Shown here: positions 1,351 to 19,903 of the stretch, piece after piece
Numbering within the stretch: position 1 is the stretch's first letter
Layout: each line of letters begins with the position of its first letter
NCBI GenBank assembly: GCA_021129445.1
Contig: JAJOLG010000010.1
Location: 1 to 19,967 of the forward strand
Length of the DNA: 19,967 nucleotides
Origin: Candidatus Altimarinota bacterium
GTDB lineage: Bacteria; Patescibacteriota; Gracilibacteria; GCA-2401425; JAJOLG01
Reading direction: 5' to 3'
Translations under genes and position numbers: made by a program
Notes under the pieces: generated by a model
What the model was told of the DNA's origin: nothing
The model's database searches: none
What the model saw: the letters and a program-made list of their open reading frames with translations, nothing else

Positions 1351-3069
1351 ATGAAAAATATTAACAAAATTAAATTAAATATTTTCGACAAAATTGCATT
1401 TTGAATTTTAATAATTTTCGCAATTTTTATACCATTTCATGCATTTTTAGTAACATTTTTACCACATTTTTTTTGAAATTTGTGATTTTGAAATTTTTTT
1501 TGATTGTGAAAATTTTTTTTGGTTTGGAAAGAAATTTTATTTTTAGTTTTAAGTTTTTTGTTTTTTTGAAAATTTTTGCAAAACCTTTTTTTTAACTTAA
1601 AAGAAGATAAAAAATCAAAAAATAATCTGATAAAAAAATTTTTTTCTCATTGAAAAAAAGAAAATTGTATCAAAAAATTTTTTTTGTGATTTAAAAATTT
1701 TTTTTATTTATCAAAAAAATCTTTTCCGATTCAGCAGTTTTTTTTCTTTGATAAAATTTTTTTAGCATTTTTTTTAATCGCAGTAATTCCAGTATTTTAC
1801 AGGTTTTTTACTTGAAGTTTTTGAGAAAATTTTTTACTTCAATCGATTTTTTGATTTAGGGTGGATTTTATTTATTTTTTAATTTTTTATTTGATTCGTT
1901 GATTTTCTTTTAACCTTACTCAAATTAAAAAATTTTTTTATGTTTTTATTTTTTCTTGATTAACAGCTTTGATTTTTTGATTTTCTCTTTATTTATCAAG
2001 TTTTAACCGGGTTCCAGAAAAAATTATTACTTCAAAAAAGAATTTTATTGAAATTTCTGATGAGAATAAAAAAATTATCAAACAATTTTATTTTCACAAA
2101 AGTTGAGAAAATGACGATATTTTGAGAAAAAAAGAGGGTTTAAATGAAAATGAAAAAATAATTTTAGAGAAATTTTTTGAAAATCCAGACTTAATAAATT
2201 TTAGAAATGAGAATTTTTTAAATTTAATGGTCGATAAATTTTGATATTCGCCAGGGGTGTCAAATTATGAAGTTCAAAAGGCTTTGCCGGCTTTTCATAT
2301 TGTTGAGGCGAAATGAACGGCAAGGTTAGCGGCTACTTTTTCTTGACCAAATCAGCTTTGATTTTTTTTGATGGTTTTTATCGGTGTTATTTTATGATTT
2401 TTAAAATTTTTATTTAAAAATAATTGATGAAAAATTGAAAAAATATTCTTGATTTCGGTTTTGATTTTTTCCTTGATTTGCCTTTATTTTTCTTTTTCAA
2501 GGTCGGCATGGCTTTGAATTTTATTGATTTTTTGATTATTTGCATTTTTTTCATTTCCTCAAAAATATCATTTAAAAATCTTCTTTTGATGAATTTTTTT
2601 ATTGGTTTTAACAATTTTTTACACATATTTTTTTCAGCAGGATTTTTTTGAAAGAACGATTTTAAGATGAGGTTCAACGGCAATGCACTTTGAGAGAAGT
2701 TTGGAATGAATTGGTCAAGTTGTAGAAAAACCGCTTGGATATTGACTTTGATTTGCATGACCAGTTTCAATGAAATTTCCAGAAAATTGAGTTAAAATTG
2801 CAGAAAATTGGTTTATCCAAATGTTTCAGGAGTTTTGAATTTTGTGATGAATTTTTTATTTATTTTTATTTTTTAATTTTTTGGTATTTTTAATCAGAAA
2901 ATTTTTATCAGAAAAATTCGATAATTTTTTGATTTTTTGATGATTTTTAGGGCTTTGTGGTGTTTTACTTGCAGGGTTATTTTTACATAGTTTTGAAGAT
3001 ATTTGAGTCTCGATTTTGTTATTTGTGATTTTATCTTTATGATTTCAAAAAAAGTTTTGACACACTTAG
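1351..3069 (+). CDS. O-antigen ligase/polymerase (Wzy/WaaL-like) membrane protein
   Basis: A 572-residue, very Phe-rich polytopic membrane protein with about ten or more hydrophobic segments. Family marks are SGPNQLG near residues 331-337 followed by a TM segment, FSRSAWLGILLIF near 381-393 (the SRSxxLG motif of O-antigen ligases), and a late periplasmic loop with ERSLEGIGQVVEKPLGYGLG near 449-468, where the family has its HNxxL-type loop. The family transfers or polymerises undecaprenyl-linked glycans at the outer face of the cytoplasmic membrane. A charged segment of about 90 residues (roughly 225-320) precedes SGPNQLG and is probably extracytoplasmic. Residue 220 is a CGG codon (possibly Trp). 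The start ATG at 1351 lies 18 nt after the previous stop. Whether it is a ligase or a polymerase cannot be decided, and no glycosyltransferase cluster surrounds it. Confidence 0.8.
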
Positions 3070-11336: not shown

Positions 11337-13832
11337 ATGGAGGAAAATACAACATTTAATCATCTTGAAATTGAAAAAAAATGGCAAGATTTTTGGGAAA
11401 AAAATAAAACTTTTAAAACTGAAATAGATAAAAATAAAGAAAAATTTTATATTTTGGATATGTTTCCATATCCATCTGGTGCATGATTGCATGTTTGACA
11501 CCCTGAGTGATACACGGCTTCGGATATTTTGGCGAGATATAAAAGATTGAAAGGATTTAATGTTTTACACCCGATGTGATGGGATGCTTTTTGACTTCCT
11601 GCTGAGAATTATGCGATAAAAACGGGGACGCATCCATCAATTACAACTCAACAAAATATTGAAAATTTTACAAAACAAATTAAATCAATTTGATTTTCTT
11701 ACGATTGGGATAGAGAAATAAATACAACTGATGAAGATTATTACAAGTGGACTCAGTGGATTTTTTTGAAATTATTCGAAAAATGATTGGCATACGAAAC
11801 AAAAATGCCAATAAATTTTTGTCCGTCTTGCAAGACTTGATTGGCAAATGAGGAGGTTGTTGAGTGAAAATGTGATAGATGCAATTCTGTGGTGGAAAGG
11901 AAAAATCTTCGTCAGTGGATGTTGAAAATTACCGAATATGCACCGCAATTGCTTGAAGATTTGGATACATTGCCTTGATGGAGTGATTCTTTGAAGGCGA
12001 TGCAGAGGAATTGGATTTGAAAAAGTGAGGGGTGTGAGTTTGAAATGTTGAAAGATTGAGATGGTTTTAAAAAAATCTCAGTTTACACAACTCGTATTGA
12101 TACAGTTTTTTGAATGACTTATGCGGTTTTAGCACCTGATCATAAAGATGTGAAAAAATTTATTACTGATGAAAAAAGAGAGGAGTGTGAAAAATATATT
12201 GAACAATCTTCAAAAAAATCTGATTTGGATAGAACTGAACTTGCAAAAGAAAAAACTTGAGTTTTTACAGGTTCTTATGTTGTAAATCCTTTTAATTGAG
12301 AAAAAGTTCCACTTTGGATTTGAGATTATGTTTTGGGGAGTTATTGAACTGGGGCAGTGATGGCTGTTCCTGCGCATGATGAAAGGGATTTTGAGTTTGC
12401 GAAGAAGTATTGATTGGAAATTGTAAATTCTATTTGATATGAAAAAATAAATATTAATAATTGTGTATTAGATGAATGAGTGGCTTCAAAGGTTTATGCT
12501 GAAACAAAAATTATCAATAATAAAAATATTTATATAATTATTTGAGAACCAACTATTCAAGATTGAATTCTGATAAATTCCTGAGAATTTACCGGTTTAA
12601 CTTCAAAAGAAGCAAGAGAAAAAATATCTAAATTCGCAGAAGAAAATAATTTTTGAACAAAAAAAATAAATTTTAAATTAAGAGATTGGGTATTTTCTCG
12701 TCAAAGATACCGGTGAGAACCAATTCCAATTGTACATTGTGATGATTGTTGAATGGTTGCGGAAAAAGAGGAAAATTTACCATTAACTTTACCAAAAGTT
12801 GAAAAATATGAGCCATCGTGAACATGAGAGTCTCCACTTGCAAATATTGAAGAATGGGTGAATTGTAAATGTCCAAAATGCTGAAAACCTGCAAAAAGAG
12901 AGACAAATACTATGCCACAATGGGCTTGATCTTCATGGTATTATTTGAGATATATGGATCCAAAAAATTCTGAAAAATTTGTTTGAGAAGATGCTGAAAA
13001 ATATTGGGGGCAAGTTGATGTTTATGTTTGAGGTGCTGAACATGCAGTTTTACATTTGCTTTACGCGAGATTTTGGCACAAGGTTTTGTTTGATTTATGA
13101 CTTGTTTCGCATAAAGAACCATTTAAAGAATTGAGAAATCAAGGGCTTGTCATGGCATTAGATTGAGAAAAAATGTCAAAATCAAAATGAAATGTTGTAA
13201 ATCCAGATGATGTAATTCAAGAATTTTGAGCTGATACTTTGAGACTTTATGAAATGTTTATGGGGCCATTTGATCAAAATGTTGCTTGGGATACAAAATG
13301 AATAAAATGAGTGAAAAGATTTTTGGATAAAGTTTGGAATTTGAGAAAAAAGGTTGATAAAGATTTTGAAAACTCTGATGAGGTTTTAAAAAATTTGCAT
13401 CAAACAATAAAAAAAGTTTGAGAAAAAATTGAGAAATTTGAGTTTAATACTGCAATTTCTGATATGATGGTTTTGGCAAATTTATTGCAAAAACAAGAGA
13501 AGATTTCTAGATGAGTTTTTTATAATTTTCTAAAAATTTTAAATCCATTCGCACCTCATTTAACTGAAGAATTAAATGAAATTTTATGGTGACAAGAAAT
13601 TTTAGCTTATCAAAAATTTCCAGAATATAGTGAAAAATGGTTAACTGATAATGAAAAAATTTTCCCAATTCAGGTAAATTGAAAAGTTCGTGCGCAATTG
13701 AAAGCTGATAAAGATATTTCAAAAGATGATGCGATAAAGGAGGCTAAAAAGTTGGTTGAAAAATATTTGGAATGAAAAGAAATTAAAAAAGAAATTTTTG
13801 TTCCTGGGAAAATTATTTGATTTGTTGTTTAA
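11337..13832 (+). CDS. leuS: Leucyl-tRNA synthetase
   Basis: An 831-residue class I synthetase charging tRNA-Leu. Class I signatures are [18 protein letters not shown] (HIGH form HVGH at about residues 50-53) and GEKMSKSKGN at about 611. A zinc-like CPSC...CDRC pair is near 164-184. The CP1 editing domain has the T-rich TTRIDTVFG at about 247 and [16 protein letters not shown] at about 336. The catalytic core has [10 protein letters not shown] followed by xGEPIPI, and [18 protein letters not shown]. Residue 459, the invariant Trp of RYWGEPIP, is encoded by CGG (12711-12713), evidence for Trp recoding. Length is usual. The anticodon-binding and C-terminal domains are complete ([13 protein letters not shown]). 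A MoxR gene follows after 17 nt, suggesting one transcript. Confidence 0.97.
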
Positions 13833-13849
13833 AAAATAAAAAAATTACA

Positions 13850-14815
13850 ATGAACGAAAAAATAAAAAGTTATCAAGAAAAAATAATTTCTGCAAAAAAT
13901 GAAATTGCCAAAAAAATAATTTGACAAGAAGAGTTGATTGAAAGTTTGTTTTTATCAATTTTTTCTTGATGACACATACTTTTGGAGTGAGTTCCGGGTT
14001 TGGCAAAAACTGAATCGATTAAGGCGATTTCTGAAATTTTTTGAGCAAGTTTCAAAAGAGTTTCATTTACTCCTGATTTGTTGCCATCCGATGTGCTTTG
14101 ATGAATGATTTTTGATCAAAAAAAATCTGAATTTAAAATTAAAAAGTGACCAATCTTTACAAATTTTTTGCTTTGAGATGAGATAAATCGTGCACCAGCA
14201 AAGGTTCAATCATCGCTTTTGGAGGCGATGGCTGAAAAACAAGTGACAATTTGAGATGAAACCTTTGCACTTCCGAAGCCATTTTTGGTTATGGCAACTC
14301 AAAATCCACTTGAACAAGAATGAACCTTTCCTCTTCCTGAAGCGCAAGTTGATAGATTTTTTATGAAGGTTATTTTGTGATATCCATCGGAAAAAGAGGA
14401 GTTTGAAATTGTGCAAAAAAATTTAAATTTTGAAAAAGGGGATTTGCAACAAATTTTTTCGCTTGAAGAAATTTCAGAAATTCAAAAAATTTGTGAAAAT
14501 ATTTATTTAGATGAAAATTTAATTTCTTACATTACAAAAATTATTTCTGCGACAAGAAAAATTTCTGAAATTTATCCAGAATTTAAAGATTTTATTGAGT
14601 ATTGATGTTCACCAAGAGCATCAATTTCACTTGCAAAAGCGGTGCAGGCAATGGCATTTTTTGAATGAAAAGATTTTGCAAATCCTGATGATGTGAAAAA
14701 AGTTGCAAAAAGGATTTTGAGACACAGGATTTGATTGACTTACAGAGCAGAAATTGAGTGAGTTGATGCGGATTTTGTGATTGAAAAGATTTTGGAAAAA
14801 GTTGAGTTAGTTTAA
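13850..14815 (+). CDS. MoxR-family AAA+ ATPase
   Basis: A 321-residue AAA+ protein of the MoxR group, chaperone-like ATPases that mature or assemble protein complexes. Walker A GVPGLAKT lies near residues 47-54 (the usual S/T-for-G variant of MoxR). Then come SFKRVSFTPDLLPSDVLG, Walker B FLLGDEINRAPAKVQSSLLEAM near 105-126, the sensor-1 region [22 protein letters not shown] near 148-169, and the lid with GCSPRASISLAKAVQ near 252-266. It ends RHRIGLTYRAEIEGV. TGA encodes many of these glycines. MoxR genes are usually followed by DUF58 and VWA partner genes. Here the gene is last before a strong terminator, with leuS upstream, so its clients must be encoded elsewhere. Confidence 0.93.
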
Positions 14816-14826
14816 AAGTTTTATTT

Positions 14827-14853
14827 AAAAAGCGGGTAAACCCCGCTTTTTTT
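14827..14853. terminator. Strong bidirectional terminator between moxR and the amidase-SpoIID gene
   Basis: AAAAAGCGGG ... CCCGCTTTTT forms a GC-rich stem flanked by A and T runs, giving a T tract on either strand. It lies between convergent genes: 12 nt after the moxR stop, and touching the stop codon (14852-14854) of the minus-strand gene. It is the clearest rho-independent terminator in the window. Confidence 0.9.
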
Positions 14854-17800
14854 AATGTAGCTTTCAAATATCAACTCATTGATAATAATAATGTAAAATT
14901 TTTCTGTAAGACCATCACATTTGCCCAAATTTTTCTGCTCAAAGTCAAGAAAGCCCAACTCAATGCCCACATAATCTCAATCTGTATCTCCTTGTGTCTT
15001 TTCAGTGTTTGTCATTTACACTTTGATAAACCGATGAAACTTTATTAAAATATTCACCTTTCCATCCTGCCTGAGCTGGTGTTTTTGTTTTTCAATTTGA
15101 GCAAGAAAAAAATGCAGTTTTTAAAATTTCTCAATTAAATCTCAAAATTTCTCATTTTGTTTCACGAAGGGCTTGTTGCCATTTTGGTGATCTTTTTTCA
15201 TATCATGCACCTAAATATTTTTGAAAAACATCTGGATCGTCTGATCAATCATAATTTTTTCACGGAAATTTTCTGTATTTTGTTTTTGTGTAAAAACTTG
15301 CATAAGACCTTGCAACAACAGTCAAAGCCTTTCTTTTTTCGTGATTTGAAGATTCTGGAACCTCTGCAATTCATTTCATGTAATCTTCAATATCCAAATT
15401 ATTTATTACCAAAATTTTTCATTTTACACGATTATCAAGTGCATAAACTTCTATTTTTCATCTAAAAAAATTATCGTTTATTTTTTTATTCCAAGCAGGT
15501 GAGTGGATCCAGTTTTTTAAAAATACAAATCAATTATCAGCTTTTATTGAAAAATATTTTCACCAATATTTTTTTCAATCAATTGAAACAATAATTTTTT
15601 TATTTCAGTCTGATCTTACCCAAATATTATTTTTTTCTGTGATAAAAAATTTTTTTCTGTCCAAAAAAATTTCTCAATTTATAGGTCAAAAATTTTCTGA
15701 TTTAATTCAAAAATTTACTGCATTATGCGGAAAAGATAATTTTATTTTGATATTATTTTCTTCATTTTCTAAAAATGAAGTTTTTTTTGTTTTTTCTAAA
15801 ATTTTTTCATTTTCAATTGATTTTTCTTTTTGAATTTTAGATTTTTTTTCATTTGCAATTTTTTCCCTCATTAGTCTTATTTTTTCTGCGATACTTAATC
15901 AAGATTCAAAATAAAGTTTTGGTTCTTTTTTTGCTTTAATTTTTTCTCATGAAACAACTGTGGTTTCAAATTCAGTTCATTTAATTGTTCAGATTGAATT
16001 TACTCTTGTAAAAAATTTTTCCGTGAAAGTTCAATTTTGATTTGCTTTTACTTTAAAAATAAAAGTTGCAGTTTTTCATGGTGAAACTTTATTTTCTTTC
16101 ATTAAGGCTACAATATTTTTATCAATCCAAGATTTTGAGTAAAGTTTTGAATTTGAATTTGTGGTTCTCAAAGAGATTCTATTTTTTCAATTTTTATACC
16201 ATGTTATGTTTGTTTTATTTTTAATTCTAACAATTACTGTTCATTCTGTTCATTTTTTTAAAAATAATTTTTTTGCTGATAAATGTGTAATTATTCAAGA
16301 AAGATTTGCTTCTTTTACTTCAATTTTTAGTTCAAATCTTCATAATCTATCAAAATTTTTTCAATTTGCCAAAGCTTGTAAAGTAGCTGTGTAAGTTCAA
16401 GGTTTTGTTGGGGCTTGAATTGTTACATCAGCGAATCCGGCTTGATGTCTAGGGACGAAATCTATAATTGGATAAACGAAGCTATCAAATTTTAATCATC
16501 ACGAACGAACTACATGAAAAGAAACTTGTTCGCTTTCCCATGCAACATCTGAAAGATTTTTTAATCAAATTTTTACAGTTTTTTTCTGACCTGTTAAAAA
16601 AACATTTTCACGAGATTTTCTCAATAATTGTGCTCTATAATGCGGTTTTTTAACTTTAATATTAAACTGCATTGAGCGGTCTCATAAAAAAGTGTCTTCT
16701 CAAATTACAGGAATAAATTTTTCCTGATATTCTCATGCGATCATTGGAGCTCTTAAAAAAAATTCAAAAGTTCAAAATTCTCATGGTTCAACTGTTTTTT
16801 CTTTTAACCTTGCTAAAATTGTGTCATTTGATCACTCTTCTTTTATTACAAAAGGCGAACGTCTTCACATTTGAAAAGTTTTCAATTTTATCGCATGATC
16901 TCATGAACGAAACCATTTTGTATTTCAAGTGTTTTGTAAAATTATTTTTGCATAAAAAGATTGACCTCAATAAATCTCTCTTGGAGGTTGTTTTAGTTGA
17001 ACAAATTGATAAGAATTGCTTGCTCATTTTACTTTAACCGGCTGAACAATTGTTCATTTTGTAAATTTTGTTGTTCAGTTTATAATTGGTACAAATTCTA
17101 AAGAATAAAGCCCGGATTCATATCAAGAAACAATTGTAACCTTAAAATGTCCAATTCATCAAGGATAAACCTTGTCTTCTTCTAAATTTGCAGCAACATA
17201 ATTTTTATCTGGAAAAATTGATTCTACATAAAGATTTCTATTTGTGTTATCTGCTACATAAAGCCAGGTTCATTTTGTCCAAGTTTTATTTGAAGTGTTT
17301 TTATATGTAAAAGTAATTTGTTTTTCAGTTGTTGGTTGCATTTCAAGAACTGAAATATCTGTTTTTATTTCTGCAATATTTTCGTATGATGAAAAATTTG
17401 TTGTTTCTTTTATGTCAAAATTAAAATCTGATAATTCAATTTGTTTTCTAATTGAAGGGATTTTTTTGTAAAGATTATCTCATGGACAGGCAGTTTTTCA
17501 AACATCTCTGTGTCAAAGGATATTTTGTGAATAAACTCAGTGAAAATATGAACTTTTTGTAACATCTAAATTGTATTTTGCTCATAAATATGCAATCAAT
17601 TTTGAAAGTGATCTTAATTGAGCCAGTGTTGGTTTTTGGTTTTGAAAATTTCACATCATCGAAATTCATAAACTTCCAATATTATAGCATTTTGCGTGGG
17701 CTCAAACTACATAATCTCAACCAGATTTTCATTCATAAATATTTCATTTTTGGTCGATTATATAATGATAACCAATATCTCACCACCTTTTTGTTAAGGT

Positions 17801-18544
17801 ATGATACCTGTAAATTCATCTCATTTTTTGTTTTCATGGTAAAAATTGAGATTTGTAGGATTCAGCTGTGTGATGAATTATGATTTTTTTGATATCTTTT
17901 GAATATTGATGAGGCCATAAAAGTGGTTTTCAAAATTCGTTGTAAATTATTTTTGCATAAGTTTTTTCATCTGATTTTAATCATGAATTTTCACATGTTG
18001 AATAATATCTTGTTACATTGTATTGAGTTTTTTTAGGTTTTGCATCTTCTGAATAATTAAACCTTAAACTTTCATCTGCTCACCATTCTTTTCTTGAAAT
18101 AATTTTTATTCATCTGGTAAAATTATTTATTCATGCAACAAAATTATCAAAAAAATTTTCTTTTGGTATTAAATTTTTTTTCCATCAAAAAATTTTTACC
18201 GCTCAACTTGAAGAAATTTTTATCCGTTGAGAATTTTTTATGTCTAAAATTTGAGAAAAACTTCATTTTTTTTCGTTTCATTTTTCAAAATTATGAAATC
18301 CATCTCATAAATCTTCCGTCATTTTAAAAATTTTTTTCTCAGAATTTGTTTCTAAAAAAGCTTCTTTTTGTCAATTTAAAAATTGTAAATGAATTGTATC
18401 AATTTCAGCAGGAAGACGAATCCATTGAGAATTGTTAACTTCTAAATTTACTGAAAAATCTCTTGTTGTTGATAAAAGAGTTTCATTTGTTGGTAAAAAA
18501 ATAAATAAAATAAAAGTAAATATTGTTAAAAAAATTTTTTTCAT
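14852..18544 (-). CDS. Secreted amidase / multi beta-sandwich / SpoIID-LytB fusion protein
   Basis: A single 1230-residue frame. Residues 1-20 (MKKIFLTIFTFILFIFLPTN) look like a signal peptide. Residues about 147-365 form an Amidase_2/PGRP-type N-acetylmuramoyl-L-alanine amidase: SRKEWGADESL, IIIHHTAES, RWGDIGYHYIID, GISMMGNF and GHRDVGKTACPG. Likely zinc ligands are H224, H345 and C353, as in T7 lysozyme. Residues about 390-866 hold about four Ig/NBR1-like beta-sandwich domains, shown by recurring Asn-rich turns before Trp (YKNTSNKTW, LQNTGNTKW, LKNLSDVAW, IKNKTNITW). A charged helix or coiled coil follows (about 884-925). Residues about 1020-1230 match SpoIID/LytB: IEDYMKGIAEVPE with the predicted catalytic Glu1061, KALTVVARSYASF, AFFSCSNGKT, CGHGVGLSGLGAEKFG and YYYQGVDI. 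The two enzymatic halves would strip stem peptides and then cleave denuded glycan. CGG at residue 107 sits in NSQ-x-IKI, paralleling NSQWIRL at 38-44. EF-Tu lies upstream on the same strand. Confidence 0.88.
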
Positions 18545-18715: not shown

Positions 18716-19903
18716 TTAAGCAATAATTTTAGAAATAATTCAAGCTCAAACAGTTCTTCATCATTCTCTAATTGCGAATTTAGTTCATTCTTCAAGTGCA
18801 ACTGCTTTTCAAAGAGTAACATTGAATTTTAAGTTATCTCAAGGCATTACCATTTCAACTCATTCTGGTAATTCAACATCTCAAGTTACATCAGTTGTTC
18901 TAATGTAGAATTGAGGTTTGTATCATTTAAAGAAAGGAGTATGTCTTCATCATTCATCTTTAGAAAGTACATAAACTTCACATTCAAATTGAGTATGAGG
19001 AGTAATTGATCATGGTTTTGCACAAACTTGTCATCTTTCAACATCATCTCTTTCAATTCATCTGATTAATAATCAAACATTTTCTCATGCTCTTCATTCA
19101 TCAAGAGATTTTTTAAACATTTCAACTCAAGTTACCACAGTTTTAGTAGTTTCTTTAATTCAAACTAGTTCAATTTCTTCTCATGGTTTAATAATTCAAG
19201 TTTCAATTTTTCAAGTAATAACAGTTCATCTTCATTTAATCGAGAAAACATCTTCAACTGGCATTAAGAATGCTTTATCAGTTTCTCTAATTGGATCTGG
19301 GATGTAAGAATCTAAAGCATTTAAAAGTTCAATAACTGGTTTTGCTTTTCAATCAAAATCAGAAGGATTTTCTAATGCTTCAAGTGCAGATCATTTAATA
19401 ACTGGTAAGTCATCTCATGGGAACTCGTATTTAGAAAGTAATTCTCTAACTTCCATTTCCACTAATTCTAATAATTCTTCATCATCAACCATATCACATT
19501 TGTTTAAGAAAACAACTATGTAAGGTACATTTACTTGTCTTGCTAAAAGAATATGTTCTCTTGTTTGAGACATTGGTCAATCTGTTGCAGCAATTACAAG
19601 AATCGCACCATCCATTTGTGCAGCTCAAGTAATCATGTTTTTAACATAATCGGCATGACCTGGACAATCAACATGAGCATAGTGTCTAGTTTCAGTTTCG
19701 TATTCAATGTGAGAAGTTGAAATTGTAATTCATCTTTCTCTTTCTTCTGGTGCATTATCAATTTGATCAAAAGCTTTCACTTCTCATCACATTTTTGCAG
19801 AAGCAACTGCAGAAATCGCAGCAGTTAAAGTTGTTTTACCGTGATCTACATGTCAAATTGTTCAAACATTAACATGAGTCTTGTTTCTTTCGAATTCAGC
19901 CAT
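18716..19903 (-). CDS. tuf: Translation elongation factor Tu
   Basis: A 395-residue GTPase delivering aminoacyl-tRNA to the ribosome. G1 is GHVDHGKT at residues 17-24, the switch region has [17 protein letters not shown]3 is DCPGH at about 81, and G4 is NKCD at about 136. Domain 2 has SIKGRGTVITGKIETG, and domain 3 ends with EGGRTVGAGIISKII. It is near the usual 394 residues. All the glycines in SIKGRGTVITGKIETG are TGA, the cleanest evidence in the window that UGA means glycine. No CGA or CGG codon was noticed. The start ATG (19901-19903) has no SD sequence. It lies alone in front of its own terminator. Confidence 0.98.

Follow-up and report, generated by a model that had tools for sequence, protein, structure and literature searches.

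A class-wide fusion of a PGRP-type amidase and a SpoIID-type domain, a probable own-wall autolysin of Gracilibacteria

The window analyzed here, one entire contig of 19,967 bases from a 673-kb genome in 77 contigs that is 94.8% complete, encodes a protein in which a putative N-acetylmuramoyl-L-alanine amidase is joined to a SpoIID-type domain, and the same fusion is found across the class of the source organism (Gracilibacteria). It is reasonably probable that this protein is secreted and works as a bifunctional autolysin, first denuding and then cleaving the murein of the cell's own wall, probably at division. We infer that both domains are active, in that order, on self murein and at the septum.

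An open frame with TGA read as glycine

The coding sequence runs from 14852 to 18544 on the minus strand (1230 amino acids and a TAA stop) and is read with genetic code 25, in which TGA encodes Gly. An earlier note on this DNA had described an uninterrupted frame of 1230 codons; its coordinates proved exact, and the frame, which contains 81 TGA codons, is open only with this reading. With table 11, no open reading frame longer than about 100 amino acids is present at the locus and the window is almost devoid of long frames, whereas reading TGA as Gly fills the window with ordinary genes. At the aligned columns, relatives carry Gly in 53% of cases for TGA codons, 62% for GGN codons, and 4% for all other codons. 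The TGA codons of the fusion gene thus fall on Gly-rich columns, which shows that the reading is right, and this match together with the missing long frames rules out the standard code for the locus. An assembly chimera or a frame break between the two halves, a concern raised in the earlier note, was also ruled out since this fused frame recurs in more than 90 independent loci.

Use of TGA for Gly is patchy in the class. It is needed by the source genome and by families f139, f142, and f145 (loci L145–L155 and L164), in which the fused frame is open under code 25. It is not needed for the fused gene in most sampled class members or in another genome of the same order (G286, loci L032/L034), which encodes a full-length fusion with 40% identity in the standard code.

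A zinc amidase fold at the N-terminus

The protein starts with a predicted hydrophobic signal sequence (residues 1–24; 18473..18544, minus strand), in agreement with the signal peptide proposed previously. In the hydropathy scan these residues are the sole hydrophobic stretch, and a C-terminal membrane anchor is absent. Residues 31–140 (18125..18454, minus) have low pLDDT values and no Pfam match. They are followed by a PGRP/Amidase_2 zinc-amidase domain (residues 145–367; 17444..18112, minus), delineated by its Pfam core and by its fold in the AlphaFold model. The Pfam Amidase_2 profile (PF01510) matched residues 216–356 with an E value of 2.8e-22 and 79.9 bits (cut-off 26). The best solved relatives are animal PGRPs (E 2e-21), and the modeled domain matched 2rkq (Z 20.8, rmsd 1.7, 158 residues aligned), 6ssc (Z 19.8), and T7 lysozyme (1lba, Z 14.3).

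The amidase site is complete. H224, Y259, H345, T351, and C353 are all present and are invariant among the fused relatives aligned, including the zinc ligands H224 (codon 17873..17875, minus), H345 (17510..17512, minus), and C353 (17486..17488, minus). Invariance of the active sites was judged over 31 to 94 relatives, depending on the alignment, and the sole gap in the amidase-site alignment is a locus cut off at a contig start. Pfam, alignment, and predicted fold therefore agree on an Amidase_2-like domain with a full H/H/C zinc set, as had been claimed, and together they point to a putative N-acetylmuramoyl-L-alanine amidase.

A compact SpoIID domain at the C-terminus

The SpoIID/LytB domain comprises residues 927–1230 (14855..15766, minus), as defined with Pfam, NCBIfam, and AlphaFold. 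Pfam SpoIID (PF08486) matched residues 1041–1135 (E 6.8e-13, 49.5 bits, cut-off 23), and NCBIfam SpoIID_LytB (TIGR02669) scored 95.1 against a cut-off of 83.3. For the equivalog of the sporulation SpoIID proteins (TIGR02870), the fusion protein reached 63.4 bits, below the 234.75 bits of that family. The best solved relatives are SpoIID of Bacillus anthracis and Clostridioides difficile. When modeled alone, the domain had a pLDDT of 96 and a pTM of 0.92, and it matched 5i1t (Z 20.5, rmsd 2.3, 188 residues aligned) as well as 4rwr (Z 16.9) and SleC (9h68). HMM searches and structure prediction, both put forward as checks in the earlier note, thus gave the same answer: the Amidase_2 and SpoIID matches exceed their curated cut-offs, and the PGRP fold and the SpoIID fold were both recovered (Z 20.8 and 20.5).

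In a profile of 94 fused SpoIID domains, Glu1061 (codon 15362..15364, minus) aligns with residue 101 of C. difficile SpoIID, a Glu whose loss abolishes activity and sporulation (PMC6221140). Glu1061 is invariant in all 94 aligned rows; Gln1108 and Gly1058 are likewise invariant among the fused proteins compared, and the HGVG motif of the SpoIID family (residues 1194–1197; 14954..14965, minus, by alignment) is nearly so. The AEVPE glutamate that had been pointed out in the sequence is thus retained, and Glu1061 is the putative catalytic residue of a glycan-cutting domain. In the profile alignment we found no counterpart of the C. difficile zinc-binding residues H134/C140/H145/C146, and the insertion that sporulation proteins carry ahead of the GHGVG motif is missing as well, indicating that the fusion contains a compact form of the domain.

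These data bear on an alternative in which the SpoIID domain, rather than cutting glycan itself, would attach to denuded glycan and serve to stimulate or anchor the amidase. Such a role has a model in LytB (CwbA) of Bacillus subtilis, which stimulates amidases and is listed as non-hydrolyzing (PMC10653849; PMC6934232). We regard a LytB-like modifier as distinctly unlikely here, because Glu1061 matches the residue required for activity of C. difficile SpoIID, because its conservation is complete, and because the genome would be left without a clear glycan cutter.

A variable spacer between two fixed ends

By fold, the AlphaFold model contains four Ig-like domains in residues about 388–870. The first (residues 388–508; 17021..17383, minus) shows the strands in the model and a weak NBR1-like match (E 3.4e-4), the second (509–635; 16640..17020, minus) is NBR1-like by profile, the third (636–750; 16295..16639, minus) is recognized by fold only, and the fourth (751–870; 15935..16294, minus) matched human NBR1 (4ole) by fold with Z 12.3 (rmsd 3.0, 117 residues aligned). 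Searched with the whole protein, N_BRCA1_IG (PF16158) matched in two stretches (45.8 bits, cut-off 28); when the domains were excised singly, only the first two matched the NBR1-like profile, both under the cut-off. A charged helix (residues 885–913; 15806..15892, minus) with flexible flanks precedes the SpoIID domain in the model. The earlier description of this region, about four Ig/NBR1-like domains and a charged helix, therefore stands, with the number given by fold and the NBR1-like profile confined to two stretches. Two loci elsewhere (L214 in G060 and L215 in G144) encode a SpoIID domain preceded by three Ig domains of the NBR1-like kind and lack an amidase.

The spacer between amidase and SpoIID domain ranges from 105 to 775 amino acids in fused relatives; the count of Ig-like domains varies, and some lineages have just a short linker. 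The suggestion that the β-sandwich spacers may bind wall or host was thus correct in that Ig-like spacers are present, but since their number varies across relatives a conserved binding role is unproven. Both active sites are invariant while the spacer varies in length, which indicates that the conserved feature is the joining of two activities. The model of residues 31–1230 (mean pLDDT 82) has a pTM of 0.39 and holds both the PGRP and the SpoIID fold; at this pTM the orientations of the domains are not fixed.

The fusion recurs across the class

Of the 25 other class members in a 286-genome sample of the phylum, 24 gave significant matches. Among 89 genomes drawn evenly from the class, a SpoIID domain is present in 70 and an Amidase_2 domain in 81. 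For nearly all of the class SpoIID domains (68 of 71), an Amidase_2 domain is encoded on the same strand no more than 4 kb upstream, and for 67 of the 71 the two are in frame; among the 70 genomes with SpoIID, 67 have it as a fusion. The two halves sit at contig ends in G343; G314 has a frame break plus a further SpoIID fragment where a contig begins; and G288 truly encodes the amidase and SpoIID as two separate genes. By Pfam, 19 of the 89 genomes have no SpoIID, two of which (G242 and G328) are Pfam misses. The fusion is therefore not indispensable in all class members. One locus (L033, in G177) encodes an amidase with Ig-like stretches (510 amino acids) and has no SpoIID downstream or elsewhere by Pfam; we read it as natural loss of one half.

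Named records with the fusion are from Peregrinibacteria, Peribacteria, and Gracilibacteria, and the best 80 matches of a contig scan are Patescibacteria records or records titled just "bacterium". Other parts of the phylum have the fusion only occasionally (G002, G012, G033, G051, G015, and G039), and many other genomes of the phylum carry SpoIID or the amidase alone. The architecture had been thought to be private to the source organism; the search for it in relatives, which recovered more than 90 loci, shows instead that it is class-wide. Since related bacteria throughout the class share the fusion, its role is probably a conserved, housekeeping one in cutting the own wall, rather than that of a one-off weapon.

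We also considered that both domains act on the wall without being sequentially coupled, such that fusion provides co-secretion alone. The wide variation in spacer length, the lack of a fixed orientation at a pTM of 0.39, and the separate genes of G288 would all fit this idea. We nevertheless consider it unlikely, since co-secretion alone would not require fusion in 67 of the 70 SpoIID-bearing genomes.

In trees of the amidase and of SpoIID, fused proteins from outside the class did not group with those from inside, and many branches were weak. A single origin of all fusions was therefore not retained, as the trees fail to recover one group. From these sequences, the history may be one early fusion with later splits or separate later fusions. 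An origin in phages or plasmids was also rejected: viral contigs (31 loci) and the listed phage records gave amidase-only matches, the 20 plasmid matches listed cover one half of the fusion only, no record from plasmids or phages reaches 80% coverage of the fusion query, and no fusion was seen in viral records.

Neighboring genes

In the window, the fusion gene is preceded by the gene for EF-Tu on the same strand (18716–19903) and is followed by a convergent MoxR-type gene (13817–14815). By eye, the genes of the window encode EF-Tu, LeuS, a MoxR-type ATPase, a DnaB-like helicase, and SmpB-like and Mfd-like proteins. Among 54 loci of relatives, 19 have a TsaB-like gene downstream and on the same strand, at a median distance of 11 nt, and other common neighbors are an RsmI-like methyltransferase, RNase H, thioredoxin, MetK, and SerS (all identified by eye). 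A LeuS-like gene, again identified by eye, is located downstream on the opposite strand in the window (11337–13832, plus strand) and in six distant relatives, possibly an old gene order that has been kept. With identities assigned by eye, the neighbors of the fusion in relatives are mostly housekeeping genes. The window also encodes a 572-residue multi-span membrane protein (1351–3069, plus strand) with a weak likeness to IctB/O-antigen ligase (TIGR00947, E 0.0012).

Cell wall genes and the target of the enzyme

Profile searches of the source genome detected three middle domains of Mur ligases, along with PBP transpeptidase domains on two contigs. They also found four M23 domains and a single copy each of Amidase_2 and SpoIID. 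Judged by its Mur ligases and PBPs, the source organism makes its own peptidoglycan, and Gracilibacteria have been reported to possess complete peptidoglycan synthesis (PMC11452946). SpoIIP had no match in the source genome or in 11 others, while a B. subtilis control was matched; this result for 12 genomes upholds the claim that the fused amidase is unrelated to SpoIIP. Amidase_3 gave no match in the source genome, and SLT gave one match, under the cut-off. MltG/YceG was not matched in the source genome but was present in all 11 other genomes searched, and its absence from a 673-kb genome may thus be a real loss or an assembly gap. These absences are results of profile searches in a genome of 94.8% completeness, and a family that seems absent may lie in a gap. 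The fusion is the sole recognized amidase and the sole clear glycan cutter of the source genome.

The earlier note had offered cell separation or attack on a host wall as roles. The signal sequence without a membrane anchor would suit a secreted weapon that cuts the wall of the host or prey of an attached epibiont, with the Ig-like domains binding the host surface, and Vampirococcus lugosii, a predatory member of the CPR Absconditabacteria, has been proposed to act on its host by means of secreted peptidoglycan hydrolases (PMC8080830). This explanation appears quite unlikely. The fusion is a single-copy, class-wide protein in a peptidoglycan-making genome without another recognized amidase, its neighborhood in relatives is of the housekeeping kind, its Ig-like domains dwindle to a short linker in some lineages, and no fusion was found on plasmids or in viral records. 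We found no specific support for host attack, and cell separation is the favored part of that proposal. Self murein is the likely target, as the cell has genes for murein synthesis and no other recognized amidase.

For the favored own-wall autolysin, the N-terminal PGRP-type zinc amidase would remove stem peptides from murein, the Ig-like domains and helix would act as a tether that holds the SpoIID-type domain near the same strand, and this domain would then cleave the freshly denuded glycan. M23 endopeptidases encoded elsewhere in the genome would cut the crosslinks. The enzyme is probably used in cell separation and in wall turnover. The simplest way to read a fixed fusion is that the SpoIID domain uses as its substrate what the amidase has produced on the same strand, in keeping with the previous statement, borne out by the literature, that glycan freed of its peptides is the typical substrate of SpoIID (PMC6221140; PMC6635528). 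More tentatively, one tethered enzyme could have taken over the whole amidase and glycan-cutting step of cell separation in the class, denuding and then cutting along the strand without a second protein, and could be the sole such enzyme left in the smallest genomes; we hold this stronger version to be possible but doubtful.

Comparison with known systems

Both domains are known, as is their functional pairing from SpoIIP/SpoIID, LytC/LytB, and AmiA/SpoIID. During DMP engulfment in endospore formers, the amidase SpoIIP strips stem peptides and SpoIID cuts the denuded glycan, as proposed for the fusion. In B. subtilis, the two are brought together by SpoIIM. In contrast to the fusion, they are separate proteins, and SpoIIP, which does not belong to Amidase_2, had no match in the source genome. 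The sporulation SpoIID also has the insertion before GHGVG and, in clostridia, the H134/C140/H145/C146 residues, both of which the fusion lacks. C. difficile SpoIID has no activity without SpoIIP (PMC6221140).

Cooperation of an amidase with a SpoIID-domain protein outside sporulation has precedents, in the form of separate proteins. The chlamydiae, non-sporulating and host-dependent like the proposed owners of the fusion, use AmiA and SpoIID, and in Waddlia chondrophila the SpoIID protein is septal and assisted by amidases (PMC6635528); this pair has neither a fusion nor Ig-like spacers. Waddlia SpoIID released dye only with an amidase, and LC-MS showed lytic transglycosylase activity on intact murein and muramidase activity on denuded glycan (PMC6635528). 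Since it cuts intact murein too, a prior amidase step is not always needed. In B. subtilis, the vegetative amidase LytC is paired with LytB (CwbA), again as separate proteins, and LytB has a SpoIID domain yet is reported not to hydrolyze peptidoglycan (PMC10653849). PGRP-LB, T7 lysozyme, and the LysC endolysin share the fold and the zinc/Tyr/Thr site of the fused amidase, but such zinc amidases are single-activity enzymes without a SpoIID domain. The germination lytic transglycosylase SleC has a SpoIID-like catalytic fold (9h68, Z 14.1), but unlike the fusion it is a spore-specific zymogen without an Amidase_2 domain.

Our literature search found no paper that joins SpoIID with Patescibacteria and none that describes the fusion; a review mentions that SpoIID/LytB proteins of bacteria other than spore formers vary in their domain architecture, without specifying how (PMC6934232). 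The fusion to a PGRP-type amidase, its near-fixation among SpoIID-bearing class members, and its spread over recoded lineages thus appear to be undescribed. In three known systems of bacteria, an amidase and its SpoIID partner are separate proteins; here the pair is one chain, class-wide, with an amidase fold unrelated to SpoIIP. This distribution provides genomic support for the view that, in ordinary cell division, SpoIID domains work on what amidases produce. It also points to a likely core enzyme of the wall in uncultured, host-dependent bacteria and offers a single soluble protein for direct measurement of the order and coupling of the two cuts.
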